A stretch of 64,000 bases of DNA from Emticicia aquatilis (GTDB taxonomy: Bacteria; Bacteroidota; Bacteroidia; Cytophagales; Spirosomataceae), in contig NZ_BMKK01000011.1 in the NCBI RefSeq assembly GCF_014644295.1, positions 1 to 64,000 on the forward strand. The letters run 5' to 3'. The stretch's first letter is position 1, and the number at the start of each line of letters is the position of its first letter. A program made the position numbers and the translations under genes. The notes under the pieces are model-generated. The model made no database searches and was not told the origin of the DNA. It saw only the letters and a list, made by a program, of their open reading frames with translations. Shown here in pieces: positions 18,994 to 43,547 of this stretch.

Positions 18994-19710
18994 TTAGAAA
19001 TCGAAACCGATAAATCGACTAAGAAGTTTTTTTTCATCAAGCATCACTTCGGCGGTGCCTGTGGTATAATATGCCAACGGAATAACCTTTCCATTATTGG
19101 TTTTCATACCATTATTGAGTTGTACGATTGCCCGATAGCTATTTTCAATTACATAGGGGATTACAGTTTCGATTTGACCCTCTAAATATCCAAATTCGTT
19201 TACAGGGTAAGGGTCTAACTTTATCTGCACACGTTGCCCTTGTTTTACTTTTCCAACCCCAACGATTGGTAAACTAAGCTGAACCTCATAATCTGATATT
19301 GAAGGGATAATCACAATCGTAGATTTCCGAGGATTGTCTTCAGATGTTCGAAGTAGAACAACCCGACCACTTACATGAGTTGTTTCGTAAATTACTTCTT
19401 TGGTTTGCACGTTTGTTTCAATCAGTAAAGTATCGCCTGCTTTTACAAGCTGAGAGTCAGCAACACAGATTTTATATTCAAGTGGAGGGGAATTATACCA
19501 ACTAACTTTCTTCGGTTGAACCGTCGAATTAATCATTACTTTCGCTTGTGTAATATCTGGATATTTTATCCAATAGGAAGTCAAGATAAATAATAGAAGT
19601 ATTGAGAGCATAACCATAATACCCCAACGGATTATCCAATTTGGAACATGACCAATTATTTCTTGGATTTCCTCGCTTCTTAATTCATAATTTGAGTCGT
19701 TGTTTGGCAT
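18994..19710 (-). CDS. Short HlyD-type periplasmic adaptor of the RiPP exporter
   Basis: This 238-residue protein has a cytoplasmic N-terminus, one membrane anchor at about residues 29-50 (WGIMVMLSILLLFILTSYW), then a lipoyl/barrel-like beta domain (SQLVKAGDTLL, VKQGQRVQIKLDPYP). HlyD-family adaptors usually carry a long alpha-helical coiled-coil hairpin between the lipoyl halves and run beyond 350 residues. Here the two halves are joined by a short link with no coiled coil. It lies 13 bp downstream of the C39 ABC transporter and is probably its partner. With no hairpin it may not reach a TolC channel in the usual way. Confidence 0.85.
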   Translation of the reverse strand: MPNNDSNYELRSEEIQEIIGHVPNWIIRWGIMVMLSILLLFILTSYWIKYPDITQAKVMINSTVQPKKVSWYNSPPLEYKICVADSQLVKAGDTLLIETNVQTKEVIYETTHVSGRVVLLRTSEDNPRKSTIVIIPSISDYEVQLSLPIVGVGKVKQGQRVQIKLDPYPVNEFGYLEGQIETVIPYVIENSYRAIVQLNNGMKTNNGKVIPLAYYTTGTAEVMLDEKKLLSRFIGFDF

Positions 19711-19723
19711 AGCAGTAATTATT

Positions 19724-22039
19724 TTAGGCAGCTTCTAACTCTAATTGATTTTTTACTAATTCAAAATAATATCCTCTATTAGATGCAAGTTGTGCATGAG
19801 TCCCTTTTTCTTTGATTTCACCATTTTCCATAACAATTATTTGGTCGGCATTTTTTACCGTACTTAGCCTATGAGCAATCACGATAACGGTTCTGCCTTT
19901 AAAAAATTGGTCAAGGTTTCTCATAATAACTTTTTCATTATTTGCGTCTAAAGCACTTGTTGCTTCGTCAAAGAAGATGTAAAGCGGGTCTTTATAAACA
20001 GCCCTGGCAATAAAAATTCGCTGTTTTTGCCCACCACTTAGGCCAGTACCTGTGCTTCCGATTTTTGTCGTAAAACCCAGTGGGAGTTTGCGTAAATAAT
20101 CTTGTATATTGGCAACTTTTACGGCATTGATGAGTTTATTTTCTACGATTTTTTCACCATCAACAGCAATATTTCGAGCAATGGTATCCGAGAATATGTA
20201 TCCATCTTGCATTACTGTTCCACACTTTTTTCTCCATTCACGAGCCGACAAGTCATTTAAGTCATTGCCATTTACCAATATTTGCCCCTCGACTGGTGGA
20301 TAAAATTTAAGTAAAAGTTTCAATAATGTTGTTTTTCCGCTTCCGCTTGCACCTACAATGGCCGTGACTTTTCCGGCTGGAATATGTACATTGATATCTT
20401 TCAGAATTAATGGGCTTTGTGGCCCACCGTATCTGAACGATACATTTTTGAGGGTAATTCCTCTTCGACTCGAAATCATACTATTGAGAATTCGCCCTTC
20501 TTCTACTTCCTCTAAAATATGTTGTTTGTTTTCTGACTCTTCGTCTAAATCTGCAGTGATAGCTTTGCCGAGAAGTTCTTCTTGGTCAACCTCTTCATCA
20601 GGACGATTATGAATTTCGGCCAGACGGTCTAAACTGATTTTTGCGTCTTGAATACTCCTCATAAATCGGATGATTTGCGAAAGAGGCGAATTGAGTTGTC
20701 CTACTATGTATGAAATACTGAGCATGATACCAAGAGTAATATGGTTGTTCATGACCTCGGTAGCGGCAATATACGAAATTAGGATATTTTTGAGCTGAGT
20801 CATAAAAGTAGAGCCTACTTCCTGATATTGCTCCAACGATAAACTTTTAATATTGATTTTAAATAATTTGGCTTGGATACGTTCCCATTCCCAGCGTCTG
20901 GCACGTTCACAATTATTGAGTTTTATTTCTTGCATGCCTGTTATCAACTCATAAATACTATTCTGGTTTTCTCGTAAGCGTTGAAAACGTTTATAGTCGA
21001 GTTCTTTGCGTTTTTTTAGAAATAATACCACCCAAACGATTGAAATAATGCTACCTATAACAAAAACGGATAGAATTTTTATGTTATAAATGCCCAAAAC
21101 GATTGAAAATACGAGCAAGTTTACGAACGAAAAAAGGGTTTGTAGAGTTGAGCCAGTCAGAAACGATTCGATACGATGATGGTCATTGATTCGTTGAGAA
21201 ATATCTCCAATGTTTTTAGATTCGAAATAGCTAATGGGTAGCCGCATGAGTTTCAATAAAAAATTTGAGATAATTGAAACACTCATGCGGCTGTTAATAT
21301 GAAGTAAAATCCAGTTACGTATCATATCAACGGCCATACCGCCCAAAAACAATAAAAGTTGAGAGACTAAGATGAGGTGGATAAAGTCAAAGTTTTTTCT
21401 GTGAATACCATAATCAACTAAACTTTGAGTCAAGAATGGAAAAATCATACTTAAAAGACTGCTAAAAACCATTCCGAGTGCAATCTGAATAATATATTTT
21501 TTGTATGGTTTGAGGTATTGAAAAAGAAATTTAAAGCCAAGAGCTTCGTCCTTTTTTTCTTCAGAAGTTTCGTAAAATTGATTGGTTGGCTCAATCAATA
21601 GGCCTATTCCTTTATTATCAGAAGTACTTATCCAACATTTCAAAAACGTTTCTTTATCAACCCAGACGATGCCATGACCAGGGTCGGCAATTAGTAGTTG
21701 GTCCTGGGTTTTTCCTCTGATTGTATCATACCACGAAGGCTCTCTTACATCATATAAAACCACAAAATGTTCTTGATTCCAGTGTAAAATACATGGCATT
21801 GGAGCTTCTTCTACTAACTGTTCATAAGAAAGTTTAGCAGATAAGGTTTTGAAGCCTATTTTTTCGGCAGCGTCGCTTATTCCTAAGAGACTAACTCCTT
21901 GACGAGTAATATATGAGTTTGCTCGAAGGAAATCTAAGGTATAATCTCGACCATAAAAAGACGCAACCATTCGTAAGCAAGTGGGGCCACAGTCCATAAA
22001 ATCGAGCTGGCGATAAAATTTGTATTTACTTTTTATCAT
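19724..22039 (-). CDS. C39-peptidase ABC exporter (PCAT) for double-glycine peptides
   Basis: The 771 residues contain all parts of a peptidase-containing ABC transporter. The N-terminal C39 protease has catalytic Cys17 in MDCGPTC, His in HWNQEHFVVLYD and Asp in ADPGHG. A six-helix membrane domain spans about 175-440, and an ATPase about 530-765, with Walker A GASGSGKTT, signature LSGGQKQR, Walker B FFDEATSALD and the His loop VIAHRL. All key residues are present, so it should be active. Such proteins cut leaders after Gly-Gly and export the core (family knowledge). Eight peptides in this operon carry GG, so it probably processes all of them. It ends 13 bp before the adaptor gene. Confidence 0.95.
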   Translation of the reverse strand: MIKSKYKFYRQLDFMDCGPTCLRMVASFYGRDYTLDFLRANSYITRQGVSLLGISDAAEKIGFKTLSAKLSYEQLVEEAPMPCILHWNQEHFVVLYDVREPSWYDTIRGKTQDQLLIADPGHGIVWVDKETFLKCWISTSDNKGIGLLIEPTNQFYETSEEKKDEALGFKFLFQYLKPYKKYIIQIALGMVFSSLLSMIFPFLTQSLVDYGIHRKNFDFIHLILVSQLLLFLGGMAVDMIRNWILLHINSRMSVSIISNFLLKLMRLPISYFESKNIGDISQRINDHHRIESFLTGSTLQTLFSFVNLLVFSIVLGIYNIKILSVFVIGSIISIVWVVLFLKKRKELDYKRFQRLRENQNSIYELITGMQEIKLNNCERARRWEWERIQAKLFKINIKSLSLEQYQEVGSTFMTQLKNILISYIAATEVMNNHITLGIMLSISYIVGQLNSPLSQIIRFMRSIQDAKISLDRLAEIHNRPDEEVDQEELLGKAITADLDEESENKQHILEEVEEGRILNSMISSRRGITLKNVSFRYGGPQSPLILKDINVHIPAGKVTAIVGASGSGKTTLLKLLLKFYPPVEGQILVNGNDLNDLSAREWRKKCGTVMQDGYIFSDTIARNIAVDGEKIVENKLINAVKVANIQDYLRKLPLGFTTKIGSTGTGLSGGQKQRIFIARAVYKDPLYIFFDEATSALDANNEKVIMRNLDQFFKGRTVIVIAHRLSTVKNADQIIVMENGEIKEKGTHAQLASNRGYYFELVKNQLELEAA

Positions 22040-22061: not shown

Positions 22062-23264
22062 TTAAATAGCTATTTTCCTGACTAAGTCCCTGTCCTTGAT
22101 TGGTCTTAGTTGCAATGTTTTTTTTAGCTTACTGGGCAAGGATTCATAAACCACGTTTTGTATATGTTTGATTAGGTATTTTAAATCAAGGCAGTAAACC
22201 GAAGGATTATCAAAACCGTTGTTTTCGCTGTACCTATGAGCGATAAAACCTCCTCCACAAACCTCTACAATCGGACAACTTTGACACTCTTGGCATAGAT
22301 TCTGATGGCCAGCGTAGTATTGATGATAGAAATCATTTTTCAATGCTTCGTCGATACTATTTTGGTTGATATTCAGATTTTTTTTTGTAAAACTGTCTCC
22401 ACAGATTTTAAAAGCCCCTGTTATCTCAATTGAGCCATCGGTTTCGATGACTAAAAATTCGTTTTTTTGATGACCAAAATATTCAAAGCCTTCATCGTAC
22501 CCAATCATTAATCTGATGAGTTGTGTGAAAATTCTGATTGTTGGTTTGGGGTGCTGGTCAAAATACCATAAATCAAAAACTTTAATCAACCAATCTGCAT
22601 AAGGTTTATTATCTATCTTTTTGAGTGGTGGTAATTTCTGATGCGTACAATCTGGTAATAAAAAATCAACAAACTGTACGTTCAAAGCCTTCAGGTGTTG
22701 ATAGTTTTGTACTGGGTCTGATAACACATTAATCACCGATAAAATGCCTGGTGGATATAGTAGCTTTTTTGAGTTTTGAGCTATTTTTAGTCCTCTAATT
22801 ATTCGTTCATAACTACCTTTTCCTTGATGGTCGACTCGTGTACTGTCATTGTCTTTTTGTGGGCCATCAATACTGACTCCGATACTTATTTTTAATTGCC
22901 CAAGTATTTCGCACCATTTCTCTGTTAATAAAACTCCATTAGTTTGTAAATTAAAAATAGGTTTTATTTGTGGCGATAGTTTTTTTATGGCTTTGTGTAC
23001 AAAAATTTCGTAAAAAACAGGTGAAGCTAAAAGTGGCTCACCGCCATGAAAAATAAACTCGAATTGAGGTATATTGTGCTTAGTACAATGCTGTTTGACC
23101 TCATCTATAATGGCATCAATTGTTGCATCATTCATCAACTTGGGTTGATTTTTATAAGAATTATCACCCAGATTATACATGTAGCAATAAGTACAATTAA
23201 GGTTGCACCTACTCGCTACTTTCAGGATGAGTGCCTTACAAGAAGGATGAGCCGTCGATGCCAT
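22062..23264 (-). CDS. Radical SAM/SPASM peptide-modifying enzyme
   Basis: This 400-residue protein has the radical SAM cluster CNLNCTYC (Cys20, 24, 27), GGEPLL, and the strand motifs FNLQTNG and SIDGP. A C-terminal SPASM domain follows (CQECQSCPIVEVCGGG, with a later Cys) that binds extra Fe-S clusters. Overall it resembles the FxsB/XyeB-like maturases that form cyclophane or other C-C links in RiPPs; anaerobic sulfatase-maturase relatives are the alternative. Two small double-glycine peptides end 9 bp upstream and the C39 exporter follows 22 bp downstream, which makes peptide modification the best reading. The exact chemistry cannot be told from sequence alone. Confidence 0.88.
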   Translation of the reverse strand: MASTAHPSCKALILKVASRCNLNCTYCYMYNLGDNSYKNQPKLMNDATIDAIIDEVKQHCTKHNIPQFEFIFHGGEPLLASPVFYEIFVHKAIKKLSPQIKPIFNLQTNGVLLTEKWCEILGQLKISIGVSIDGPQKDNDSTRVDHQGKGSYERIIRGLKIAQNSKKLLYPPGILSVINVLSDPVQNYQHLKALNVQFVDFLLPDCTHQKLPPLKKIDNKPYADWLIKVFDLWYFDQHPKPTIRIFTQLIRLMIGYDEGFEYFGHQKNEFLVIETDGSIEITGAFKICGDSFTKKNLNINQNSIDEALKNDFYHQYYAGHQNLCQECQSCPIVEVCGGGFIAHRYSENNGFDNPSVYCLDLKYLIKHIQNVVYESLPSKLKKTLQLRPIKDRDLVRKIAI

Positions 23265-23273: not shown

Positions 23274-23453
23274 TTATTTTTCTATGTCTAAGTTTTCGAT
23301 ATCGCCAGCCTTTGCCACAGATGAGATGCTCTCTCGCCAGCCTCCTAAAATCACATCGCCTGTGATTTTGTTTTCTTCTTTATCGAAGTGTTCGAGTGCT
23401 TTACGTTTATTTTTTGTATCGTTTGATTTAATAAAAAAAGGTTTCTTTTTCAT
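23274..23453 (-). CDS. Candidate radical-SAM RiPP precursor 1 (59 aa)
   Basis: MKKKPFFIKSND starts at ATG 23453; an in-frame upstream extension overlaps the preceding gene and is not used. The leader is rich in charged residues, then a double-glycine site (DVILGG, residues 33-38), then a 21-residue candidate core beginning W-R-E-S. The core has one Trp, three Ser and no Cys, so it is not a lanthipeptide. It lies 9 bp from the radical SAM gene. A Trp-x-x motif just after the GG would fit cyclophane chemistry, but that is inference. Confidence 0.75.
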   Translation of the reverse strand: MKKKPFFIKSNDTKNKRKALEHFDKEENKITGDVILGGWRESISSVAKAGDIENLDIEK

Positions 23454-23473: not shown

Positions 23474-23671
23474 TTATTTTAGATTGTCTAATAGTATTGA
23501 AACTTTGCCCCATTCCATTTCTGAAGAAGACTCATACATAGGAATATACTCACGGTCACCACCACGAATTTGTAGAGCAAACTCATCCGAAATTCCTTCG
23601 ATGCTTTTTTCATTTCTATTGTCGGCTTCGAAGAATACCTTTTTCATTAGATTTTCAAGTGATTTTTTCAT
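23474..23671 (-). CDS. Candidate radical-SAM RiPP precursor 2 (65 aa)
   Basis: This peptide has a helical acidic/basic leader (MKKSLENLMKKVFFEADN, with a second possible Met start at residue 9), a double-glycine site (ALQIRGG, GG at about 37-38), and a 27-residue candidate core containing REYIPMYESSSEMEWGKV. The core has two Tyr and one Trp but no Cys. It is the first of the peptide pair, 20 bp before precursor 1, and a possible LytTR operator lies 64 bp upstream. The two peptides share the leader length and the GG, but the cores differ fully, as expected for two products of one maturase. Confidence 0.75.
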   Translation of the reverse strand: MKKSLENLMKKVFFEADNRNEKSIEGISDEFALQIRGGDREYIPMYESSSEMEWGKVSILLDNLK

Positions 23672-23716: not shown

Positions 23717-23768
23717 CAAATACAGTATTTTTTCGACGAATAGAAATGCGGCTTCGACCAAAATCAAT
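23717..23768 (-). promoter_or_regulatory. Putative LytTR operator and -7 element before the radical-SAM peptides
   Basis: On the plus strand GACGAATAGAAAT (23735-23747) and GACCAAAATCAAT (23756-23768) are imperfect direct repeats 21 bp apart. On the minus strand TGTATTTG (23717-23724) differs in one base from the Bacteroidota -7 consensus TAnnTTTG and lies 10 bp downstream, so the repeats would cover the -33 region. The second repeat overlaps the last codons of the M16 gene. The same motif recurs at 37801. Confidence 0.5.
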
Positions 23769-26688
23769 ATCCAAAAATCTCTTCTTTGCTAACCTTGATA
23801 ATCTCTCCGTATTTTTTTAAGTCATCAAGCGATACTTTCTTTTCGGACGCCAACAAACAGTAAGTAAAATGGCCTTGAGTGATGGTGTTATGAAACTTTT
23901 TTAGCTCGTCAAAATTTAAATTTGCAAGTGAATTATAGGTATTAGGACGTTGGTCAAGTGATAATCCGAGGTCACGTGCTTGGAAATAATTGAAAGGAAT
24001 ATTTTCAGGCAAAACTCTATCGCTTTCTAATAAATTTTTTAGGCTTTTGACTGAGTTTTCAAACGATTGTTGTGATTCGGGTAAGGTGGTCAGTATTTCG
24101 TTCATACTTACAATCGCTTCGGGAAGCTTATCGGCTTGTGTCCCAATGTAGGCCGTGAGCGTATATGGCTCATTTTGTGTTTCGGGTCTTTGATAATTGG
24201 CATAAGTAGTATATGCCAAAGCCTTTGCTTCTCTGATGGTCTGGAAAACTACCGAAGCCATATTACCTCCCATATAATTATTGTAAAGGCTAATAATCGG
24301 CGTGAGGGTCGAGTCGAATGTGGTTGTATTTTTTATCCACTGAATTTCGGCTTGTATCATCTCATAATCAACAAAATAGAGTTTGTTAGTTTCGTTGTGA
24401 ATTTTATGAAACTTGGCTATTGGTGGCGTCGAAATGATGGTTTGGCGAGGAATATGTAGCTTAAGTTTTTCTTTGATTTTGATTAATGGCGTAGGCCCGT
24501 AATAGATTATTTCTTTGGGCATACGTAATAAACGATGAATGAGGTCGGTTAAATCTTCGGCTTTTAAATCTATAATTTCTTGATTGGAAAGTAAGTAGTT
24601 GTTCGGGTTTTGTGGCCCATAAGTAGCATAACTTGTGAGGGCTTTCATGATATTTGTTTTATTGAGTTTTGCTTCTTCACGCCTTTTCAAGATACGTTGT
24701 TTCAAAGAATGTAAAATGCTCTCGTTGGGTACACATTCAAACATTAATTCATGAAAATAATCAAGAGACTTGGCCATGTTTTCTTGTAAACCATCAACTT
24801 CCATCATCAGTGAGCGATTTTCGACATAGAAATTATAATTGCTGGCCATTTGATACATTCCTTTGCTGATTTCTTCCGAAGTGTATTTTTTTGTACTCAA
24901 AAGTTTGAGATATTCGATTGCAATCGCCAATTTTTTATCATGTAGTTTGCCATAATCAAGCCGATAAACTACGCTGAAAAGCTCATTCTTTTTATTGGGT
25001 ACGTAATACATCTTTGAATTATTGACAAAGTCTATTTGGAGGTCTTTCGAATAATCAATCCACTGGGGTTGCATCTCAGGAAGTGCCATTCGGTTGAATG
25101 ATTTGATGAAGTCCGATTGCTTATTTCGGTCTATAGCTAAAGGAGTTATATTTGGTTTTTCGATTTTTTGTATGTTATTGTCTTTCCCTTTTTTCTTATA
25201 AACTACCAATGGATAAGTGTAAGTCTCATTGATAAACTTCATGATGTCAGCTTTGGTAAGTTTTCTCATTTCGTCAGGAATAGAAAGTGTCTGATTCCAG
25301 TTTTTACCATCGCTTATGATAAAAGATTCGAGTAAATTATAACTTCGAGAAGAGTTGTCTTTTTGAGATTCGAGTGAGCGACGGCGAAAATTGTTAGTGA
25401 CCGCTATCATATCATTCTCCGAAAATTTGCCTTCTTTTAAGAGCGAAATTTGACCTAAAAGAAGGTCTTTTACTTGGTCGAGTGATTGCCCATCCTTTGG
25501 CGTTCCATTCATTACAAATACACTATAATCTTTCATTTTTCTAACAGCTGAGCTTCCGCTTAGAATTTGCTGTTGTTTGATAAGATTTAGGTCGATTAAA
25601 CCAGTGGTATTGTTTGACATCAATTCGTCGGCTAAAGTAGCGGTAATTGTGGAGCGGAAATCAGAGAGGCCTGGTAGCCTGAATGCAATCCGAATAGACT
25701 CGGGGGTTGGCCCCCAAACTTCATCTTTTAAAGTATCAGTTAAGATTTCTTCTTTTGGAAATGAAAGTGGAGCAACATTTTTGGGTTTCCAAGAACCAAA
25801 ATACTCGGCAATTTGCCTGATGGCATCATCGGGGTTCAAATCTCCAACCAAAATAATAGCCATATTGTTTGGTACGTAGTAAGTATCATAAAATTGCTGA
25901 ATGGCAGTCAATGAAGGGTTTTTTAGATGTTCGACCGAACCTAAAACTGTTTGTTGCCCATAGTTATGATTTTTAAAAATGTCACGTAGCATAGTTTCTT
26001 CTAACTTTCGAGAATCATTATCTAATGCACGATTTTTTTCTTCATAGACTGTTTCAAGTTCAGTGTGAAACATCCTGAAAATAGGATTTCGGAAGCGTTC
26101 TACCTGTATTGTTAGGTAGTTTGGTAGAGCATTTGATGGAATATTGTCAACATAAACTGTTTGCTCGTATGATGTAAAAGCGTTTGTACCTTTACCACCT
26201 ATCGTAGCCATTGCTTTATCGTACTCATTTGAGATTGCATATTTAGCGGCACGCCCCGAAAGTTTATCAATTTCTTTGTAAATCTCTTTACGCTCGCTAA
26301 GGCTTTCGGCCTGAGCATACATTTCGTATAAGACGGTAATCGAGTCTAAAATTGGTTTTTCTTGTTGCCAGTTCGATGTGCCAAATTTATCAGTCCCTTT
26401 AAATAATAAATGTTCTAAATAATGGGCAAGACCAGTATGGTTTTTGGGGTCTTGATTTGCTCCCGCCTTAACGGCAATAAAACAGTTGATGCGAGGTTGT
26501 TGGTCGTTAGGGCTAAGAATAACCCTAAGCCCATTTTTAAGTTGATAAAAACGAGTTTGAGTAGGGTCATTTGTTACATAAGTATAGGTGTAGCCTGCAG
26601 CTTTTTTAGATTTCCACTCGTATTTTTGCTGCGAAAACCCTAAACTAACAAATCCTACGATTATTAAGAAAGTATATAGATTTTTCAT
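23764..26688 (-). CDS. M16 (insulinase/pitrilysin-family) zinc protease
   Basis: This 974-residue protein has an N-terminal signal peptide (MKNLYTFLIIVGFVSLGFSQ), so it is periplasmic. The inverted zinc motif HYLEH (His89, Glu92, His93) is followed by NAFTSYEQTVY and the distal Glu in ELETVYEEKNRA, so the first half should be catalytic. The C-terminal half is a second M16 pair without HxxEH, as normal in the family. M16 enzymes degrade short peptides inside a closed chamber. It lies 11 bp after lanB in the operon, so leader degradation, trimming of exported peptide, or self-protection are possible roles. Confidence 0.92.
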   Translation of the reverse strand: MKNLYTFLIIVGFVSLGFSQQKYEWKSKKAAGYTYTYVTNDPTQTRFYQLKNGLRVILSPNDQQPRINCFIAVKAGANQDPKNHTGLAHYLEHLLFKGTDKFGTSNWQQEKPILDSITVLYEMYAQAESLSERKEIYKEIDKLSGRAAKYAISNEYDKAMATIGGKGTNAFTSYEQTVYVDNIPSNALPNYLTIQVERFRNPIFRMFHTELETVYEEKNRALDNDSRKLEETMLRDIFKNHNYGQQTVLGSVEHLKNPSLTAIQQFYDTYYVPNNMAIILVGDLNPDDAIRQIAEYFGSWKPKNVAPLSFPKEEILTDTLKDEVWGPTPESIRIAFRLPGLSDFRSTITATLADELMSNNTTGLIDLNLIKQQQILSGSSAVRKMKDYSVFVMNGTPKDGQSLDQVKDLLLGQISLLKEGKFSENDMIAVTNNFRRRSLESQKDNSSRSYNLLESFIISDGKNWNQTLSIPDEMRKLTKADIMKFINETYTYPLVVYKKKGKDNNIQKIEKPNITPLAIDRNKQSDFIKSFNRMALPEMQPQWIDYSKDLQIDFVNNSKMYYVPNKKNELFSVVYRLDYGKLHDKKLAIAIEYLKLLSTKKYTSEEISKGMYQMASNYNFYVENRSLMMEVDGLQENMAKSLDYFHELMFECVPNESILHSLKQRILKRREEAKLNKTNIMKALTSYATYGPQNPNNYLLSNQEIIDLKAEDLTDLIHRLLRMPKEIIYYGPTPLIKIKEKLKLHIPRQTIISTPPIAKFHKIHNETNKLYFVDYEMIQAEIQWIKNTTTFDSTLTPIISLYNNYMGGNMASVVFQTIREAKALAYTTYANYQRPETQNEPYTLTAYIGTQADKLPEAIVSMNEILTTLPESQQSFENSVKSLKNLLESDRVLPENIPFNYFQARDLGLSLDQRPNTYNSLANLNFDELKKFHNTITQGHFTYCLLASEKKVSLDDLKKYGEIIKVSKEEIFGY

Positions 26689-26699
26689 GATAGTGATAT

Positions 26700-29864: not shown

Positions 29865-29916
29865 ATTCTTTAATAATTGAGTATTTGGAAATTTGTAAAA
29901 GAACGTTTAACTTTAC

Positions 29917-29934: not shown

Positions 29935-29967
29935 TAAATCGCTCAAGAAATTGGGTGTTACTTATTT

Positions 29968-30002: not shown

Positions 30003-30057
30003 ACCTAAAACATTAAGTCGTGTAAGGTTTTGAGGTTGTATGTATCGAAAATTTGGT

Positions 30058-32825: not shown

Positions 32826-32838
32826 AGTCTTTAGAGAA

Positions 32839-34047: not shown

Positions 34048-34084
34048 GATTATTTAGAATTTTGAAAGCGTTAGAAATGTTTTC

Positions 34085-35311: not shown

Positions 35312-37738
35312 TTAATTGTGCTTGATACGGTCTTGCTCTGATGAACTTCCAACGTCACGGCTACGTTGTTTTACGTCGGTTTTCGATTTGAACTTGTAAG
35401 AAAAAGTCAGTCTTACGACTCGAGTGTCTCTGAAACTCCTGAACTTCTCATATTGGTTAGAGATATCTGTCGTTGAATTGAATCTTTGAGTCCAGAAAAT
35501 ATCATTAAGTGCAAGCTTTGCCGTACATCTTTTTTCGAAGAAAGTCTTTATTACGCTAATATCAGTTGAGTAGTTAGATTGCTGATAACCAACAACATAT
35601 TTTTGGGGTGAAATAAAGAAACCTCCTGTATTGATTCTGAAATTGTTGGGTAAGGTAAACGACTGCTGAATACCTATGTAAGAAGATTGCCCTTCGGTTT
35701 TGAAACCTGTTCCCCAAAGATTAGAGTCTGAAAACTGGCTTTTATCAACATACATTTCAGTTTGGAAATTCCACCACTTGAAAAACTGTTTGTTGTATGA
35801 AACCGAAACTCCAAAAGTTTGTACTTTATCAATGTTGGCATAAAAATTACGAGTAGTGAGGGTTTGATTATTTTGCTCGAACGACTCATACAAACTATTT
35901 TTTGAATGATTGAAATAGAGTGTTGTAATCAAATTTCCGCCTAAACTAAACTCAAGCTCAACTGATGAGGTAATATTGGGTAATAAGTATGGATTCCCCT
36001 GAAAATAGTTGTATTTGTTTTGATAAAAAATGAATGGATTTAGGTCGCTGTAAGATGGACGGCTAATGTTACGTTTGGCTCTGAACGCTATGCTATTATC
36101 ATTTTTTAATGAACGTTCAATGGCAAATGAAGGAAACCAATTGGTATAATTTCGATTAACAGCTGTATTTTTATCTAAAGATTTTATTTCAGAACTTGTA
36201 TTTTCGACTCTCAAACCTAATCTGATTTGATAATCTTTGAGCGAAGAGGTTGCACTTAAATAGGCCGCTTTTATACCTTCTTGATAATTAGTTCGGTCAG
36301 AAAACTGGTTGTTTTTTATCCAACGAGTATCAATATTATCCTCAAAAATCATCATGTTTTTTATGGCTACATCGCTTATCTTGAAACCCGTTTCGAGTGT
36401 CGTTTTGTTGTTGAGTGGGTGAGTATAATCAGCTTTGAAACTTTTTATTTCGGTTGCGTAGTTGGCGTTTGTTCTGATTTTTTCAATATTTCGTACAAAA
36501 GCACCTTGTTTTAATAAGTTTGCATCAAAGTTTCTTAAAGAATTATAATCGTCAGTGGCGTAATCAACATCTATATTGATGCTTTTTCCGAGCGAATCTA
36601 ACTTTCCTTTGTAATTAAAATTGAAGTTTTTAAAATTGGTTTTATCATTGGTTGAGGCTAATGTACTTTGTGTGGAATCAATAGTTCCTAACTGATTTTT
36701 GAAGTTTATTAAAAAGTTGCGATTAGATGTTGGAGTGTTGATGTTGGCATCGAACAATACCCCAATGACGTGGTTTTTATGAATATTGTAATCAACCCCC
36801 AATCGAATATCGTTGGGTTGGGTATGACTATCCCGTGCTTGGCTTACATCCTGAAAGCTGCGTTTATCTCCATTTACAAAACGACGCTCTGAAGACGAAT
36901 TAAATCTTGAACGACTATCTTGTCGACTGTAATAAGTCAAGAAATTCCACTTTCCAACTTTATAGTACATATTGAAATTGCCAGATACTTTTTCAAGTGG
37001 ACTCCTACCGTAACTAATTGCCGAATTACCATTAAAACCATTAGCTTGTCCTTTTTTGGTTTTTATATTTAGCACGCCACTTACTGAAGCATCATATTTG
37101 GCAGATGAGTTGATTACCTCGATTGATACGATACCCTCCGAGGCCATACCTTTAAGGAAACTTGATAGACCTTCACCCGAAAGTTGGACAGGTTTATTGT
37201 CAACCATTATCAAAATATCGCTTCTGCCTTTCAGTTTAATCTTATCATCTTGATTAACAATTACTCCTGGCGTTCTGCCTAATGCTTCCAGCACATTACT
37301 CCCCGATGCCAAAGGACTATTTTCTACATTAAAGACAATTCTATCAAACTTCTTTTCGATGATGGCTTTGTTTCCAACTACTTTCACTTCATTGAGTAAT
37401 GTAGCATCGTCATCCAAATCAAAAGGGATAAAGATTGATACCTTATCGTCGGGCAATGATAAGGTAAGTTTTCGGAAGCCTATAGACTGAGCAGTAATAT
37501 AATATTTCTCGGTAGGTATATTTGAGAATTCAAATTTTCCATCGGCATCAGCGATTGTTCCTTTACTTAATGTTGAGTCTTTAGAAAAATACAGACTCAC
37601 TGTTGCAAACGGAATAGCCTGACTATTTTTTTTCTCCTTCACTACCCCGCTTACATTTATGTAATTAGCCTGTGCCGCTACTTTCCATGAGAGGAAAGAA
37701 AGAGAGATGATTGACAGATGCAAAATGTATTTTTTCAT
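35312..37738 (-). CDS. Outer-membrane beta-barrel receptor (TonB-type) of the RiPP operon
   Basis: The 808 residues comprise a signal peptide (LHLSIISLSFLSWKVAAQ), a CarboxypepD_reg-like domain at about 28-110 (VSGVVKEKKNSQAIPFATV), a plug-like region at about 115-225 (ALGRTPGVIV, GVLNIKTKKG) and a large outer-membrane barrel to the end (FRAKRNISRPSYSDLNPF). It opens the minus-strand operon, 16 bp before the zinc-less LanC, with the putative LytTR operator 63 bp upstream. A role in moving the product or a signal across the outer membrane is inference. Classic SusC-type features are absent. Confidence 0.88.
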   Translation of the reverse strand: MKKYILHLSIISLSFLSWKVAAQANYINVSGVVKEKKNSQAIPFATVSLYFSKDSTLSKGTIADADGKFEFSNIPTEKYYITAQSIGFRKLTLSLPDDKVSIFIPFDLDDDATLLNEVKVVGNKAIIEKKFDRIVFNVENSPLASGSNVLEALGRTPGVIVNQDDKIKLKGRSDILIMVDNKPVQLSGEGLSSFLKGMASEGIVSIEVINSSAKYDASVSGVLNIKTKKGQANGFNGNSAISYGRSPLEKVSGNFNMYYKVGKWNFLTYYSRQDSRSRFNSSSERRFVNGDKRSFQDVSQARDSHTQPNDIRLGVDYNIHKNHVIGVLFDANINTPTSNRNFLINFKNQLGTIDSTQSTLASTNDKTNFKNFNFNYKGKLDSLGKSINIDVDYATDDYNSLRNFDANLLKQGAFVRNIEKIRTNANYATEIKSFKADYTHPLNNKTTLETGFKISDVAIKNMMIFEDNIDTRWIKNNQFSDRTNYQEGIKAAYLSATSSLKDYQIRLGLRVENTSSEIKSLDKNTAVNRNYTNWFPSFAIERSLKNDNSIAFRAKRNISRPSYSDLNPFIFYQNKYNYFQGNPYLLPNITSSVELEFSLGGNLITTLYFNHSKNSLYESFEQNNQTLTTRNFYANIDKVQTFGVSVSYNKQFFKWWNFQTEMYVDKSQFSDSNLWGTGFKTEGQSSYIGIQQSFTLPNNFRINTGGFFISPQKYVVGYQQSNYSTDISVIKTFFEKRCTAKLALNDIFWTQRFNSTTDISNQYEKFRSFRDTRVVRLTFSYKFKSKTDVKQRSRDVGSSSEQDRIKHN

Positions 37739-37800
37739 AACTTATTGTTGGTTTGATGAACCGAAATAAGGTACAGTAAGGAAGAGAAAGAAAAATATTC

Positions 37801-37833
37801 GACGAATAAATCTTGCTTTTAGACGAATCAATC
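37801..37833 (-). promoter_or_regulatory. Putative LytTR operator: 21-bp-phased direct repeat
   Basis: GACGAATAAATC (37801-37812) and GACGAATCAATC (37822-37833) match in 11 of 12 bases and start 21 bp apart, two helical turns. LytTR regulators classically bind paired ~9-bp direct repeats with 12-13 bp between (family knowledge). The site lies 63 bp upstream of the receptor start and beside the LytTR gene. The same motif, orientation and distance occur before the radical-SAM peptides (23735). Confidence 0.6.
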
Positions 37834-37932: not shown

Positions 37933-38733
37933 ATGGAAAAAAAACTAACGTGTGTCATCATTGATGATGAACCACTTGCACAAGAACTGATTGAAAAGTT
38001 TGTGAAAAGAATTCCTTCATTGGCATTAATTCGTGTTTTTGATAATGCCATTGAGGCTCTCGAAGAAATAGATGAGCTGAGTCCTGATATTATTTTCCTC
38101 GACATAAATATGCCAGAGATGTCTGGTTTTGAGTTTATTAGAACCTTTAATAAGGTACGACCAAATGTAATTATGACTACCGCTTACCCACAGTTTGCCA
38201 TCGAAGGATATGAGCATGATGTGGTAGATTATTTACTTAAACCAATTCCTTTCGACCGTTTTGTTCGGGCCATCAATAAAGTGAGAGATAAAATCCATCC
38301 CTCATTTATTGAACCAAAAGTATTATCAGAAAACCACTTAGTTGCAAATTCGACCTCAGAAGAAAATGAAAAGAATGAGGATGATTTGATAGACCCAGGC
38401 ATGGTAAGAGATAATTTTTTGTGGGTGAAAGAAGACCGTAAACTTGTAAAAGTTGATTTTAATGAAATAGTGTATGTAGAAGGTATGAAAGATTATATTA
38501 AGATTTTTTTGCCTAAGACCATGATTATAACTTATATGAGAATGGGTAAAATGGAAAATATACTGGCTACCCGAAACAAATTCTTACGAATTAATAGGTC
38601 ATTTATTATCAATACAAAATTTATGGTAGCTCTCGATGGCAATATGGTAGAGCTTGATAATGGGAAAAAACTGAGTATAGGGTCGAACTATAAAGATATT
38701 ATTAAAAATGCCATGAAAGCTCAATTACGATAA
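37933..38733 (+). CDS. LytTR response regulator of the RiPP locus
   Basis: This 266-residue protein has a receiver at about 5-125, with the acidic pair IIDDEP, phosphoacceptor Asp in IIFLDINMP, Thr in MTTAYP and Lys in LLKPIPF. A LytTR DNA-binding domain spans about 165-262 (FNEIVYVEGMKDYIKI, FLRINRSFIINTKF). It is divergent from the receptor gene and sits next to a phased repeat that I propose as its operator. The kinase gene follows after one base. It is the likely regulator of the minus-strand RiPP operon. Confidence 0.93.
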   Translation: MEKKLTCVIIDDEPLAQELIEKFVKRIPSLALIRVFDNAIEALEEIDELSPDIIFLDINMPEMSGFEFIRTFNKVRPNVIMTTAYPQFAIEGYEHDVVDYLLKPIPFDRFVRAINKVRDKIHPSFIEPKVLSENHLVANSTSEENEKNEDDLIDPGMVRDNFLWVKEDRKLVKVDFNEIVYVEGMKDYIKIFLPKTMIITYMRMGKMENILATRNKFLRINRSFIINTKFMVALDGNMVELDNGKKLSIGSNYKDIIKNAMKAQLR

Positions 38734-38734
38734 T

Positions 38735-39847
38735 ATGAAACTAAAGAAACTTTTTTTGCAGATAGGTTCGGCAGATTATTCAGGACGTAAAAAAGTATTA
38801 ATACATTGTATATTCTGGGTACTTTGGTTTGGATTTATTTGGTTTTACACTCCCAATAACTTTTTACCAAGCGAAGATATTTTAGAACTTAACCTTCTAA
38901 TTACATTTCGAGATTGGTGCCTTACCGTTTCATTTTTTTATGTGTCTTCAATGTTTATTTTTCCGCAATTGAGTGAAGGCAAGTTTTTTATCCCTCTAAT
39001 TGTAATTAGTATTTCCTACTTTGTTATTTATGCGGTGACTTACTGCACTCTCATATATTATGCTTCACTATTTCCAAATCAACGTACTTATAGTGGATAT
39101 GCTAAGTTTTTTGCAGAAAAGGGTTTCTGGAAAAGCATCTATGCAAGATTTGGATTTTGGTTTATTACTTTTTGGTATGCTCTTTATTTTGTTGTGCCAT
39201 TGATTATTAAATTAATGGTTGATATAGCATTATTTAGAGTAAAAAATCTGGAATTAGAAAGAAACAATATAAGATTAGAATTAGATTATCTGAAATCTCA
39301 GGTAAATCCACATTTTTTGTTTAACACCCTCAATGGTGTTTATTCATTAGTTGTAGATTCTGAACCCAAAGCTGCCGAGATTATCCTCAAACTGTCAGAT
39401 TTGATGCGATATTCGCTCTACGAAGCTAACTCAGACCAAGTGGCACTTCATAGAGAAGTAAAATTCATTCAAGATTATGTATCATTGGAGCGAAATCGGC
39501 ATAAGGCATCCACTCAGATACTCCTCGAAATAAGCGGTGATACTGGCGATTTACAAATTCCACCTTTGCTTCTCGTCACTTTTGTTGAAAATGCCTTCAA
39601 ACACGGAATTAATAATACAATAAAGGCATCTTGGATTAAAATAGATTTATCAATCAAAGATGCTATACTGAGTTTTGATATAAGTAACAGTAAATCAAAG
39701 AAAATGAAAAGTGATGTAGTGCAAGGGGGTATCGGATTATGGAATGTAAAAAAACGACTGGACATACTTTATCCGAATCGGCATAGCCTCGAAATCAAAA
39801 ATTCAGAAGATGTTTTCAGTGTAAACCTTAAAATTCAACTCTCATAA
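38735..39847 (+). CDS. LytS-type sensor histidine kinase
   Basis: This 370-residue protein has four predicted membrane helices in the first ~175 residues (CIFWVLWFGFIWFY, FIPLIVISISYFVIYAV), a short linker helix, then the His_kinase domain (QVNPHFLFNTLNGVYSLV) and an HATPase with VENAFKHGI and GGIGLWNVKKRLDILYP. There is no large periplasmic domain, so it senses within or near the membrane, as do peptide-sensing kinases of this class. It forms a pair with the LytTR regulator 1 bp upstream. Confidence 0.92.
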   Translation: MKLKKLFLQIGSADYSGRKKVLIHCIFWVLWFGFIWFYTPNNFLPSEDILELNLLITFRDWCLTVSFFYVSSMFIFPQLSEGKFFIPLIVISISYFVIYAVTYCTLIYYASLFPNQRTYSGYAKFFAEKGFWKSIYARFGFWFITFWYALYFVVPLIIKLMVDIALFRVKNLELERNNIRLELDYLKSQVNPHFLFNTLNGVYSLVVDSEPKAAEIILKLSDLMRYSLYEANSDQVALHREVKFIQDYVSLERNRHKASTQILLEISGDTGDLQIPPLLLVTFVENAFKHGINNTIKASWIKIDLSIKDAILSFDISNSKSKKMKSDVVQGGIGLWNVKKRLDILYPNRHSLEIKNSEDVFSVNLKIQLS

Positions 39848-39963
39848 TTAAGTTCATCGAAAAAAACGAATAGTATATCGAATAAAGATTGAATTCTCCT
39901 TATTGTCTATTTTATTTGAATCGTCAATACAAAACCTAATTTATTACTAAATAACTAAGCACA

Positions 39964-40095
39964 ATGAAATCATCTAAACTTTCGCTCAACAAGCAAACTG
40001 TATTTAAGTTTCAGTCAAAAAACTCAAAAGGACACAACCGTTCGTGTCCAACTGTTACAACCAGTATGTTAACTGTCTTAAAAAATCAATATTAA
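39964..40095 (+). CDS. Hidden lanthipeptide-like precursor (43 aa) for LanB copy 2
   Basis: The ORF from ATG 39964 to TAA 40095 reads MKSSKLSLNKQTVFKF and ends SCPTVTTSMLTVLKNQY. The leader motif K-L-S-L-N-K-x-T-V matches K-L-S-L-D-K-x-T-[VI] of the six precursors at 30-32 kb, at a similar distance from the start. The candidate core has one Cys and six Ser/Thr after residue 26, so at most one thioether ring. It has no double glycine, unlike the other six. A split receiver gene starts 7 bp downstream and lanB copy 2 follows. It is short enough to be missed by automatic annotation. A signalling peptide is one possible role. Confidence 0.72.
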   Translation: MKSSKLSLNKQTVFKFQSKNSKGHNRSCPTVTTSMLTVLKNQY

Positions 40096-40102: not shown

Positions 40103-40473
40103 ATGATATATTGCTGTGGTATAGTAGAAGATGAGCCATTGGCGGAACTTATGCTCAAGCGTTATCTCAAGCGATTTCCGTTTATCGAAATCGCTTGGGA
40201 ATGCTCTTATGCTGAAGATGCTGTTGATTTAATTGAAAAAAAAAAGTAGATTTATTGATTCTTGATTTGCAAAACTTACCTGTTTTGCCTGATAGTGCAT
40301 TCTTTTCCCTCGTATCCCAACAAAAGTGCATCATTATTACCTCTGCGTATCCTATTCAGATGGTCGATATTCCATTGGATGTTATTGCCTTTTTGAATAA
40401 GCCATTTACGATAGAGAGCTTTACTGAAGCCATCGAAAAATTCGTTGGTGTTGTTGACGATTACACTAAATAA
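40103..40473 (+). pseudogene. Receiver-only response regulator split by a frameshift in an A10 tract
   Basis: From ATG 40103 the frame gives a receiver start (GIVEDEPLAELMLKRY) and stops at 40247, just after ten consecutive A (40236-40245). In the +1-shifted frame the receiver continues perfectly: VDLLILDLQNL (phosphoacceptor Asp), IIITSAYP and FLNKPF (Lys), to the stop at 40473. Eleven A would restore one ~123-residue protein. No LytTR domain follows. It may be a phase-variable gene, use transcriptional slippage, be a recent pseudogene, or reflect a sequencing error in the homopolymer. Confidence 0.85.
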
Positions 40474-40487: not shown

Positions 40488-43400
40488 ATGGCAATTCAAC
40501 CTTTTGGGTTCTATGTGCTTCGGCATCATTTAATGCCCGTCGATGGACTTTTTGCATTGAATCAAACTTGTCAGTCGGCTATACAGGCTGAAGGATTTCT
40601 AAAAAATCTTTTCTCTACTTCTCAAATGCAGCAAACACTCTATGTAGCATCTCCTGCTTTGTTTGCGAGGTTTAAGTGCTGGATTGATGGTGAAGAAATT
40701 GCAGAAAAGCATAAACTAATTCAGACTTTATTTAAGTATTATTTACGAATATGCAGCCGTTGTACGCCTTACGGAATGTTTGCTGGATGTAGTACAGGTT
40801 TTTTCGATATTCAAACCCAAATCGAATTTGAAACACAGAATCCATTTCGGATACAAAGCAGAATTGATACTAATTATCTGGTAGAGATTGTTAATGTTTT
40901 ACTGACTAACGAATCCATTCGTAATCAAGTTAGGTTTTACCCTAACAATACAATCTATCAAATAGCAGACAAATACCATTATTTGTATTATTCGATTCAA
41001 GAAAACAAGCGTGTACACGAAATTTGTTCGATTGATTTTTCGGAATATGTATCCCAAATTTTATCAAAAGCAAAAGACGGCTGTCTTATTCAAGATTTAG
41101 TCAGCGTCATTGTAAGTGAGGATATTTCGTATGAAGAAGCTCAAACTTTTATTTTACAATTAATTGAAGAGCAATTGCTCTTCTCTGAAATTGAGCCGAC
41201 CATCACAGGCGAAGACTTCTTTAAATTTTTACTAAAAAAAATATCTCTTCTTACAATCCCAGAAGAGATTTCAACAACTCTTCATAAAATTAATGAACTG
41301 TTACAAATTCAGAAACCCCAAGTGACTGACTTTGAGCAAATTAGGTATTTAATCACTACTCTGACGGGTACACCACATCAAGATTTCATTCAAACAGATT
41401 TGTTTTTTAATGCTACTACAAATAAAGTTAATAAGAAAATTATAGACGATTTATCAAGGAAAGTCGAAAAGTTGATGGTAATGAATCAAGGGAATTACTC
41501 TGCATCTTTAGATAATTTCAGAAAACAATTTTACGAACGCTACGAAGAAGCCGAAGTCCCTCTATCAATTGCTTTAGATAATGAAGTAGGTATTGGCTAC
41601 GCTGATTTTGCATCGAATAGGGGAGGTATAGCGGTTTTAGTGGAAGATATTACGCCAATAAATCAGTCTATTCAGGAAGTTTTATGGATTTATTGGAAGA
41701 AATTTACATTAAAAAAATATTCAGAAGCCCTGCAAAATCAAGCCTATGAAGTTAATATCACCGAGAAAGACTTGGCTTTATTGGCCGAAAAAAATACTGA
41801 ATTTATAACCTCTCCTCACCCGACTTTTTTTGTTTTTGGGTCTTTGTTGGCCGATACCAACTCAAATGATAATTATGCTATTCACTTAAAAAATATGAGT
41901 GGAGCTGCAGCTACTACGATGCTTGGGCGATTTGGCCATGGAGATTCTCAGTTAACAGATAAACTACGAGAGTGTACCAATTATGAAGAAGACCAATCAC
42001 CCGATGTGATTTTTGCCGAAATTATTCATTTACCCGAGGCTCGTGTTGGTAATATTGCTACCCGCCCGATGCTCCGAAAATTTGAAATACCGTATCAAAC
42101 TCCAGCGAGAGTATTGCCCGAAAATCAGATTTTAATCGAAGACTTAATGGTTTCAGTTAAAAGAGGAAAACAGATTATTTTGAGGTCAAAAAAGCATAAT
42201 AAACGAGTAATTCCTCGACTTTCGTCAGCTCATAATTACCAAAACGGACTCAGTATTTATCGTTTCTTGTGTGATTTACAAACTGCTGACGAGTGTATAA
42301 ATGTTAATTGGCACTGGAATGTACTGATTAATCAGCCTTTTTTACCAAGAGTTCGGTATCAGAATATCATTCTTTCGGTAGCCACTTGGAATATAAATAC
42401 CGAAGAAGAACAATCTTTTTCACAAAAAGAAGTGAGTTTACCGAAACTAAAAGAATTACAGAAAAAATATAAAATTCCTCGCTATGTAATGCTTTCAGAA
42501 GCTGATAATGAGCTTTGGATTGATTTTGAAAACGAAATGTGCTTACAGCTTCTGAAGGATTATTATACCAAAAATACTCTCGTAACGCTCAAGGAAGTAT
42601 TGTTTTCGCCCGAAAATTGTTTTATTAAAACATATAACGGAAATTATAATAATGAAATTATCATACCTTTTAAAGTTACTGATTATAAGCCCCAAAATAT
42701 TGTTTTAAATAGAAGTCATAATGATTTACAAAGAAGTTTTTCGGTCGGTAGCGAGTGGTTTTATGTAAAGATTTATTGCGGAGAAAAAACTGGCGAAGAG
42801 TTACTTAAAACTTCAATTAAGCAACTTGTCGAGGAACTGATAGAAGATGAAGCCATTACATCATTCTTTTTTATTAGATATCAAGACCCCGAACCGCATT
42901 TACGACTGAGATTTAGAGGTAATCCCAAAGATTTGTTTTATGCCCCTATCGTTGCTCGATTGAGTGAATCTTTGTCTATTCATCAAGAAAGTGGCTTAGT
43001 ACATAAAATTATGATAGATACTTACAAAAGAGAAATTGAACGATACGGAGCAGAAACAATGGTTTTGAGCGAAGAATTTTTTGCTATAGATAGTTTGTCA
43101 GTACTTGAATTTATTGCCGAAAACCCAGACGACCACCAACGTTTATCGTTTGCTCTTAGACGAATTAATACTTATTTAAAGGCCTTTGGTTTTGATATAG
43201 AGGCTAAAAAGGCTTTCACTGAAAAAATGCAAAAAAGCTTCTTAGAAGAGTTTGGAGATGAGTCGAATTTACGAAAAAAACTAAACGACAAATACAGAAA
43301 TCTTTCAAAACAGATAATAGAAACTATCAGTACCAAAGATAATTTTAATATCGACCAGCTTGTGAGCCAAATTACAGAATTGTCAGCTGATAAAAATCAA

Positions 43401-43547
43401 TTATATAGCTTGCTTTCGAGCTATATACACATGTTTATTAATCGTTTGTTTATATCCAGTAATCGAACCTATGAACTGACATTATATCATTTTCTTACCA
43501 AAACCTACATGACTTTAAGTAAATTCGGGCTACCTTTGACCAAATAA
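40488..43547 (+). CDS. lanB: Full-length class I lanthipeptide dehydratase LanB (copy 2)
   Basis: The 1,019 residues are colinear with LanB copy 1: RCTPYGMFAGC, LPEARVGNIATRPMLRKFEIP, RFGHGDSQL, then the elimination domain from about 754 (SEWFYVKIYCG, FFIRYQDPEPHLRLRF, DTYKREIERYG). Both active halves are present. It lies in the divergent operon with the 43-residue precursor and no LanC or exporter of its own, so it would have to borrow them from the minus-strand operon. It could work on a separate peptide, or form a mixed complex with copy 1. Confidence 0.95.
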   Translation: MAIQPFGFYVLRHHLMPVDGLFALNQTCQSAIQAEGFLKNLFSTSQMQQTLYVASPALFARFKCWIDGEEIAEKHKLIQTLFKYYLRICSRCTPYGMFAGCSTGFFDIQTQIEFETQNPFRIQSRIDTNYLVEIVNVLLTNESIRNQVRFYPNNTIYQIADKYHYLYYSIQENKRVHEICSIDFSEYVSQILSKAKDGCLIQDLVSVIVSEDISYEEAQTFILQLIEEQLLFSEIEPTITGEDFFKFLLKKISLLTIPEEISTTLHKINELLQIQKPQVTDFEQIRYLITTLTGTPHQDFIQTDLFFNATTNKVNKKIIDDLSRKVEKLMVMNQGNYSASLDNFRKQFYERYEEAEVPLSIALDNEVGIGYADFASNRGGIAVLVEDITPINQSIQEVLWIYWKKFTLKKYSEALQNQAYEVNITEKDLALLAEKNTEFITSPHPTFFVFGSLLADTNSNDNYAIHLKNMSGAAATTMLGRFGHGDSQLTDKLRECTNYEEDQSPDVIFAEIIHLPEARVGNIATRPMLRKFEIPYQTPARVLPENQILIEDLMVSVKRGKQIILRSKKHNKRVIPRLSSAHNYQNGLSIYRFLCDLQTADECINVNWHWNVLINQPFLPRVRYQNIILSVATWNINTEEEQSFSQKEVSLPKLKELQKKYKIPRYVMLSEADNELWIDFENEMCLQLLKDYYTKNTLVTLKEVLFSPENCFIKTYNGNYNNEIIIPFKVTDYKPQNIVLNRSHNDLQRSFSVGSEWFYVKIYCGEKTGEELLKTSIKQLVEELIEDEAITSFFFIRYQDPEPHLRLRFRGNPKDLFYAPIVARLSESLSIHQESGLVHKIMIDTYKREIERYGAETMVLSEEFFAIDSLSVLEFIAENPDDHQRLSFALRRINTYLKAFGFDIEAKKAFTEKMQKSFLEEFGDESNLRKKLNDKYRNLSKQIIETISTKDNFNIDQLVSQITELSADKNQLYSLLSSYIHMFINRLFISSNRTYELTLYHFLTKTYMTLSKFGLPLTK

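Follow-up and report, generated by a model that had tools for sequence, protein, structure and literature searches.

The first 64,000 nucleotides of contig NZ_BMKK01000011.1 of Emticicia aquatilis (assembly GCF_014644295.1, forward strand; hereafter the window) contain, at positions 18994–43547, a locus for ribosomally synthesized and post-translationally modified peptides (RiPPs) that is made up of three units: a lanthipeptide unit and a radical SAM (rSAM) unit, both on the − strand, and a divergent regulator/LanB2 unit on the + strand. The lanthipeptide unit runs from the gene of a TonB-type outer-membrane barrel through a zinc-less LanC (LanC2), LanC1, an LLM (luciferase-like) oxidoreductase, six precursors and the lantibiotic dehydratase LanB1 to an M16 metalloprotease; the rSAM unit comprises pepA, pepB, an rSAM/SPASM enzyme, a C39 exporter and an HlyD-type protein; and the divergent unit carries a LytTR regulator, a histidine kinase (HisK), a small peptide, a receiver-like gene that reads in two frames and the second dehydratase, LanB2. 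We consider it reasonably probable that the whole constitutes one LytTR-controlled regulon of three RiPP units, with the chemistry and the shared export proposed below. Each part is of a known kind, and the new element is the joint control by a defined box in a member of the Bacteroidota.

As we picture it, the HisK/LytTR pair (37933–39847) would sense an outside signal, whereupon the LytTR protein would bind direct repeats of 21-bp period that immediately precede the −33 regions of three promoters, turning these promoters on, namely those of the unit from the TonB-type barrel to LanB1 and M16, of pepA-pepB-rSAM-C39-HlyD, and of the small peptide with LanB2. Dehydration and ring closure in the six Cys-rich precursors would be the work of LanB1 and LanC1; a cyclophane-type C–C link would be put into pepB by the rSAM enzyme, probably at W-R-E; and the C39 protein would cut the double-glycine (GG) leaders of pepA, of pepB and most likely of the lanthipeptide precursors too, exporting the peptides with the help of the HlyD protein and of a TolC whose gene lies elsewhere.

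Common to the intergenic stretches ahead of all three units is a half-site of about WTTCRTCGAA, directly repeated with a period of 21 bp, as is usual for LytTR sites. The window's three highest-scoring sites are at 37798–37828 (−), 23732–23762 (−) and 39852–39882 (+), and end 60, 61 and 81 bp before the TonB gene, pepA and the small-peptide gene, respectively. That ranking is circular, the matrix having been built from five of those sites' six half-sites; the test was made on other loci, with the window half-sites alone in the matrix and with a pair at 21 bp scoring at least 15 as the requirement. Such a pair preceded 19 of 35 pepA-type genes and 10 of 28 TonB genes, versus 4 of 499 other open reading frames in those loci (ORFs; Fisher p 8e-22 and 3e-11, respectively), and at the other spacings from 10 to 44 the pepA-type genes gave 0 to 5 of 35. 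In the relatives' non-coding sequence, after six near-duplicate loci had been dropped, the 21-bp period yielded 96 sites, as compared with between 1 and 11 for each of the periods 18, 19, 20, 22, 23 and 24 bp.

The −7 element of the Bacteroidota is TAnnTTTG, which motif was not used in finding the boxes. With at least 5 of its 6 letters taken as a match, it stands exactly 28 bp behind the box at 59 of the 115 non-coding sites—the average per position being 2.0—and at 49 of 96 when the window and the six near-duplicate loci are left out; the off-spacing pairs also have it at 28 bp, in 4 of 11 cases at 18 bp and in 3 of 8 at 22 bp. By this geometry the box borders directly on the −33 region, which is where an activator would sit.

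A box and a promoter-like element of this kind lie before pepA, directly behind the M16 gene. For that reason we rejected a single polycistron from 37738 to 18994 as the only reading, and one long operon is unsupported; read-through may occur. A scan for standard sigma-70 promoters was uninformative (67 found vs 65.5 expected), and one for terminators gave 20 vs 13.1 (standard deviation 3.9); a weak hairpin at 30085–30068 (−), in the gap that separates LanB1 from the last precursor, is at most suggestive.

To what extent the box accompanies the regulator was assessed in sixteen LanB loci without a pepA hit in the stretch (G010 and G012 among them have pepA elsewhere in the genome), which loci had been chosen before the box search or independently of it. 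A site scoring at least 15 occurred at some place in the stretch in 11 of the 12 that have an adjacent HisK/LytTR pair, G049 being the miss, and in none of the four that lack one (Fisher p 0.003). A shared regulatory box, as far as sequence can tell, suggests that the parts of the locus are tied together.

A number of observations weigh against this regulon. A site of score at least 15 was absent before 16 of the 35 pepA-type and 18 of the 28 TonB genes at other loci, the 35 including weak hits and operon-internal genes. At the −7 position the three window sites read TTATTTCG, TTACTTCG and TTTATTTG, with 4, 4 and 5 of the 6 letters, so that two of the three window promoters have only four. The box scan of the source genome (6.75 Mb in 36 contigs) covered 496,771 bases, or 7.4% of it. 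Many of the loci are related, and the counts are accordingly not of independent events. Three Mucilaginibacter loci have boxes and the rSAM module but no HisK/LytTR match in 16–21 kb, which means that the acting regulator need not be a neighbour; and LanB loci that lack pepA carry the same kind of regulator and box, so that the circuit in itself can do without pepA.

In favour of the regulon, only four sites in the scanned 7.4% of the source genome reached a score of 20 or more, three of them being those of the window. The fourth lies outside the locus, on contig C11 of the source genome at position 78,876 (L041:14876–14906), with a score of 24.0; it precedes a 91-aa ORF by 74 bp and has no −7 element at 28 bp.

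The claim of an earlier note on this DNA, that different RiPP chemistries belong together here, is supported by the relatives. Among 148 of them searched with the rSAM and LanB1 proteins, the rSAM query found long homologues (42–55% identity, E < 1e-90) in 12 genomes besides the source, and LanB1 as the only query matched in 57; the eight best LanB1 homologues (41–48% identity) all lay within 14 kb of a full-length rSAM homologue, in a search that was blind to the rSAM gene, which argues for linkage beyond chance. Of 222 genomes from the family, a pepA profile picked out 25, counting the source; among 395 sampled genomes of the phylum, pepA was found in the source alone. In the stretches of up to 40 kb fetched around pepA, 21 of the 25 genomes had a LanB and 23 a HisK with a LytTR regulator. 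The four without LanB were G015, with two such stretches of 40 and 35 kb and its LanB on another contig; G010 and G083, whose assemblies are fragmented and of which 20 kb each was examined; and G275, where LanC1, LanC2 and the LLM gene are present on a LanB-less contig of 25.9 kb. In a tree of 48 LanB rows the LanB1 clade holds 18, which represent 16 distinct loci and without exception come from pepA or rSAM loci, with G068 assigned by hand on its rSAM and pepB hits, in the lack of a pepA hit. As most rows of that tree had been chosen through pepA or rSAM, the unbiased figure for the linkage is the eight out of eight LanB1 homologues. In related genomes, then, the parts are not always independent of one another: the bond between lanthipeptide and rSAM genes is strong, but not obligatory, since the rSAM module occurs without LanB in G015, twice, and in the three Mucilaginibacter loci.

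In these last, the module of pepA, a pepB-like peptide, the rSAM gene, C39 and HlyD is faced by other GG precursors and by additional rSAM genes, and no LanB was matched in the 16–21 kb; the pepB-like peptide is a profile hit in one of the three and was recognised by eye in the other two. The precursors there (L054:1802–8917, L058 and L061) have leaders of the SFRLNLDELTPEEL type followed by GG, six of them in L054, and are accompanied by two more FxsB-like rSAM genes; boxes lie some 60 bp before two precursors in L054, likewise before two in the L058 or L061 stretches, and, in each, roughly 330 bp ahead of an rSAM gene. One G015 copy of the module is adjoined by a 2OG-Fe(II) oxygenase and two more rSAM genes, and in the Runella-/Spirosoma-type loci G246, G247, G257 and G274 a distant rSAM (22–24%) follows it, three of the four having Cys-rich or 'EEAEELAGG' peptides. 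In Runella zeae (L057:11318–12169) and in the G247 locus (L171, L172), several Cys-rich 'PEEAEELAGG' peptides and a distant rSAM lie behind the pepA module and constitute a further chemistry in the same locus. With LanB, multi-rSAM and Cys-rich-peptide neighbours, the cassette is therefore a partner of several RiPP chemistries. The 98.5-kb Spirosoma oryzicola plasmid NZ_CP089546.1 bears pepA and LanB1 homologues at 24417–34065, so that such a locus may travel.

An alternative is that two or three independent RiPP clusters merely lie side by side in an island or hot spot, each with its own regulation, the shared exporter being accidental or absent. The rSAM module standing alone in G015 and in Mucilaginibacter, the order and strand of the parts, which vary between loci, the two exporters present in 6 of the 16 LanB1-clade loci and the plasmid-borne locus all point in that direction. 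We nevertheless regard such a juxtaposition as unlikely: the identical box and promoter geometry stands before all three window units and before units of the relatives, all eight of the best LanB1 homologues adjoin an rSAM gene, and one exporter type occurs in either operon.

Concerning export, the earlier note had proposed that the two chemistries share one exporter, the 771-aa C39 peptidase/ABC protein at 19724–22039 (−; PF03412, PF00664, PF00005) followed by the HlyD-type membrane-fusion protein of that exporter at 18994–19710 (−; PF13437 at 24.6 bits, cut-off 22.2). In the exporter tree, a supported clade ('b') holds second exporters that stand beside LanC or LLM genes, and the rest ('a') the window's exporter along with the other module exporters. 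No clade-'b' neighbour was seen in 10 of the 16 LanB1-clade loci, the window among them. The 'a' exporter sits now behind the rSAM gene (G015, Mucilaginibacter), now among the lanthipeptide genes: behind LanB1 in G037 and, in G071, G186 and G203, in the lanthipeptide operon on the strand opposite the rSAM genes, whose own operon is without an exporter. Because of this alternation, one pump serving both the lanthipeptide and the rSAM products is the simplest and likely reading for the window, whose eight GG leaders fit the C39 peptidase by sequence. As a rule, however, the proposal does not stand: six of the sixteen loci (G060, G112, G047, G012, G068 and G260) have both exporter types, the 'b' exporter adjoining the lanthipeptide genes; and the source genome itself has a second C39 gene (two were found, one in the window and one on contig C4), which groups with clade 'b' on a long branch and could serve the lanthipeptides. 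That C4 cluster (L183:11518–16936) contains a Pro/Cys-rich GG peptide, the C39 exporter (51% to that of the window), an HlyD-like protein and, by inspection, a TolC-like one; G048 has a further, very distant C39-like protein. Taking regulation and export together, the locus, which is real and recurrent and more orderly than first described, appears to be a regulon that joins two RiPP units, and probably a third, and whose pump is probably shared.

The gene list of the earlier note was borne out by ORF and domain-model checks—all the genes that it names being open, with the domains and at the places given—apart from its omission of the TonB-type outer-membrane beta-barrel (35312–37738, −; OMP_b-brl_3, PF14905 at 315 bits), the first gene of the lanthipeptide unit. 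LanB1 (26700–29864, −; PF04738 at 515 bits, PF14028 at 233 bits) is a full-length lantibiotic dehydratase with NisB among its solved-structure matches. The six precursors, numbered 1 to 6, lie on the − strand at 30095–30310, 30437–30655, 30708–30926, 31006–31236, 31265–31480 and 31589–31819; all pass the class I leader model NF038153 (48, 45.5, 50, 50, 42.3 and 40.3 bits; cut-off 22), and all have Cys and Ser/Thr in the core. Aligned with LanC-like proteins and structures, LanC1 (32839–34047, −; PF05147) keeps the zinc ligands in W-C-Y-G and F-C-H-G; LanC2 (34085–35296, −; PF05147), which the earlier note had rightly called zinc-less, has L-C-Y-G but shows L-Y-G where C-H-G is expected, the C-H ligands thus being lost. 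Accordingly annotated, LanB1, LanC1 and the precursors form what is to all appearances a complete class I lanthipeptide set. The LLM oxidoreductase (31905–32882, −; PF00296, and TIGR03558 at 133 bits, below the cut-off of 167) we take to be a possible reductase of dehydro-residues. For the M16 metalloprotease (23764–26688, −; PF00675, PF05193), a look at 35 other stretches gave no M16 match; in both relatives tested, the protease beside LanB1 was an S9 prolyl-oligopeptidase (L016:4809–7280 and L021:4370–6805). Proteins of 327–352 aa without a Pfam match recur near the LLM or C39 gene in the relatives' lanthipeptide operons (L016:13102–14085, L021:14724–15758 and L024:11219–12277), and no unannotated protein of that size was seen in the window's run.

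In the rSAM unit, two Cys-free GG peptides precede the rSAM gene (22062–23264, −), whose product has as nearest models the cyclophane-forming YhhB and FxsB maturases, at scores below both curated cut-offs (NF041707, 364 bits against 445; TIGR04269, 340.5 against 370). Cysteines 20, 24 and 27 of its CxxxCxxC motif and 288, 327, 330, 336 and 358 of the SPASM part are invariant in 14 sequences, that of the window included, and the nearest solved structure is the ChlB radical SAM domain 9gm3. The likely substrate is pepB (23274–23453, −), whose ORF opens at 23513, with the inner ATG at 23453 as the probable start. Its core starts W-R-E, and a W/F-x-E, -K or -R motif, a candidate modification site, lies behind the GG in all 13 aligned pepB sequences, the window's among them. 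A pepB-like precursor of Kordia periserrulae (L055:9731–9919) has four W-x-E units in a row (AWEEAWGESWGESWAES) and would make a good test substrate for this rSAM family. The other peptide, pepA (23474–23671, −), has the core D-R-E-Y-I-P-M-Y-E…; in an alignment of 11 sequences, again with the window's, an R, two G and a P are invariant, and a D, a K and two Y nearly so. We do not favour pepA as a second substrate of the rSAM enzyme, since its cores have no fixed aromatic-X-X motif in 25 loci. PHROGs returned nothing for pepA, pepB or the small peptide, and NCBIfam no family for six pepA and pepB homologues and, for the window's pepA, at best a match at an E-value of 0.15.

Whether the rSAM enzyme and LanB might act on the same precursors, to give hybrid lanthionine–cyclophane peptides, is a question raised by the close linkage and by loci such as G112, G034 and G246, where the rSAM gene or a pepA-pepB-rSAM run lies right behind LanB. 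We find such products very improbable and do not favour them, in that pepB-like peptides accompany the rSAM gene even where there is no LanB, the window's pepA and pepB are Cys-free, and the six precursors share no aromatic-X-X motif.

The divergent unit begins with the LytTR response regulator (37933–38733, +; PF00072, PF04397) and the LytS-like histidine kinase (38735–39847, +; PF06580). Then, behind the third box, come the small peptide of 43 aa (39964–40095, +), without GG, which at 15.1 bits stays below the class I leader threshold of 22 (NF038153) and is a possible LanB2 substrate; the receiver-domain-like gene, in two frames around a run of A (40103–40473, +), neither piece of which had an NCBIfam match; and LanB2 (40488–43547, +; PF04738 at 463 bits, PF14028 at 236 bits), a full-length dehydratase that the tree places in a different clade from LanB1. 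These two were the LanB genes found in the source genome. In several relatives an uninterrupted LytTR-regulator-like gene of about 120–140 aa lies near the place corresponding to the receiver-like gene. A second pair, of a HisKA_2 kinase with TPR and a LytTR protein, is found at 11592–14094 of the window, some 5 kb past the HlyD end of the locus.

The most likely signal is one of the locus's own peptides, with pepA as first candidate, at chances well short of even, and the LanB2 product as second. Tentatively, then, pepA may be the pheromone of a three-component circuit similar to those known for streptococcal and lactobacillar bacteriocins, being exported by the C39 protein and sensed by HisK, with the LytTR regulator raising pepA and all three units in response. 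A GG peptide, a C39 exporter, a kinase, a LytTR regulator and 21-bp repeats are found together; pepA is the first gene behind its box in the window; and its core is conserved right after the GG, with no aromatic-X-X site that would be fixed over the 25 loci. Over those loci, the distances between pepA cores follow the N-terminal half of HisK even after rSAM and C39 are accounted for (partial r 0.245, p 0.002), and those between leaders follow C39 (0.49, p 0.0005) and not HisK (−0.09, p 0.87). Furthermore, a single clade of 13 rows in the kinase tree takes in 12 of the 16 kinases whose stretches have no pepA, and on contig C16 of G060 a pepA-like gene accompanies regulator genes and a short C39 gene, with no rSAM or pepB in 37 kb. 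The correlation of core and kinase, however, is gone when the C-terminal half of HisK is held constant (−0.005), and as that half correlates better with the core (0.414, p 0.0005), the covariation may be common descent; co-evolution of pepA with the kinase is thus at most weakly indicated, and the idea of the earlier note that one product may be a signal finds support that is no more than indirect. Also contrary to a pheromone role of pepA are its stretches in G189, G010 and the three Mucilaginibacter loci, where no regulator pair was found, and the LanB loci without pepA, which need another signal.

Nisin is the autoinducer of its own genes, and the small peptide made by LanB2 might by analogy be the autoinducer here, with pepA/pepB and the lanthipeptides as weapons. 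In its favour, the regulator pair, box and LanB occur together also without pepA, and a small leader-like peptide precedes LanB in at least G033, G075, G085 and G086; we hold it to be rather unlikely, given that the window peptide is below the class I leader cut-off and has no GG, and that pepA modules with regulator pairs in a LanB-less stretch exist (G015).

With the pepA circuit in mind, the comparison that lies closest is with the LytTR three-component bacteriocin circuits of Gram-positive bacteria—ComCDE, Blp and plantaricin Pln—where direct repeats with a 21-bp period stand before several operons of one regulon. The window resembles them in its GG-leader peptide, C39 exporter, membrane kinase, LytTR regulator and 21-bp direct repeats; it differs in belonging to a Gram-negative member of the Bacteroidota, in a kinase of PF06580, in peptides of two or three chemistries, in the half-site and the −7 element, and in that its signal is only a candidate. 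Class I lanthipeptide clusters, of which the nisin type is one and those of Pedobacter and Chitinophaga are examples among the Bacteroidota, are another relation; like them, the window has a two-domain LanB, a LanC, several Cys-rich NF038153 precursors and an exporter, to which it adds the zinc-less LanC, the TonB-type barrel at the head, the second LanB clade and the rSAM unit.

Triceptide enzymes, as described in PMC11002830, link an aromatic residue to the one two positions along the chain, the partners given there being Arg, Asn, Asp, Ser and Ala, and the enzymes that form three-residue cyclophanes including XncB, OscB, MscB, YxdB, HaaB and YhhB. The window shares with these systems a SPASM rSAM enzyme, best matched by the YhhB and FxsB models, and a small precursor with an aromatic-X-X motif in the core, here a candidate modification site; it is unlike them in the scores below the curated cut-offs, the extra conserved pepA, the GG leaders and the C39 exporter. 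Its motif, W-R-E, ends in Glu, which is not among the partners given there, and would add one more kind to the list. For Bacteroidales, PMC10352776 reports regions that hold rSAM and LanC genes, in genomes without LanB; the window likewise has both in one region of a Bacteroidota genome, and differs from the regions given there in the complete class I set of LanB1, LanC1 and precursors. Searches of open-licence PubMed Central brought up no description of a single LytTR box that governs both lanthipeptide and rSAM units.

To our knowledge, how the many uncharacterised RiPP clusters of the Bacteroidota are switched on is little understood. With a defined box at a fixed distance to the −7 element, this can be tested directly and searched for; the box connects separate peptide units with a single regulator, helps to find further members, and suggests a way to wake such clusters in the laboratory, either by over-expression of the regulator or by an added signal. 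Joint control would, moreover, explain why peptide units of different chemistry travel together. It is conceivable, though doubtful, that we are dealing with a bacteriocin-type pheromone circuit in Gram-negative Bacteroidota, in which pepA and the weapons would be processed by the same C39 pump and leave through it, a LytS-like kinase would act through LytTR boxes, and the pepA-pepB-rSAM-C39 cassette would be exchanged between clusters as a 'signal and export' module. If the pheromone part were true, an arsenal of lanthipeptides, cyclophane peptides and dehydrated peptides would stand under one signal; and if the exchange were, the host clusters of the cassette would be those of class I lanthipeptides, of the Mucilaginibacter double-rSAM peptides and of the Runella-/Spirosoma-type Cys-rich peptides with a distant rSAM.

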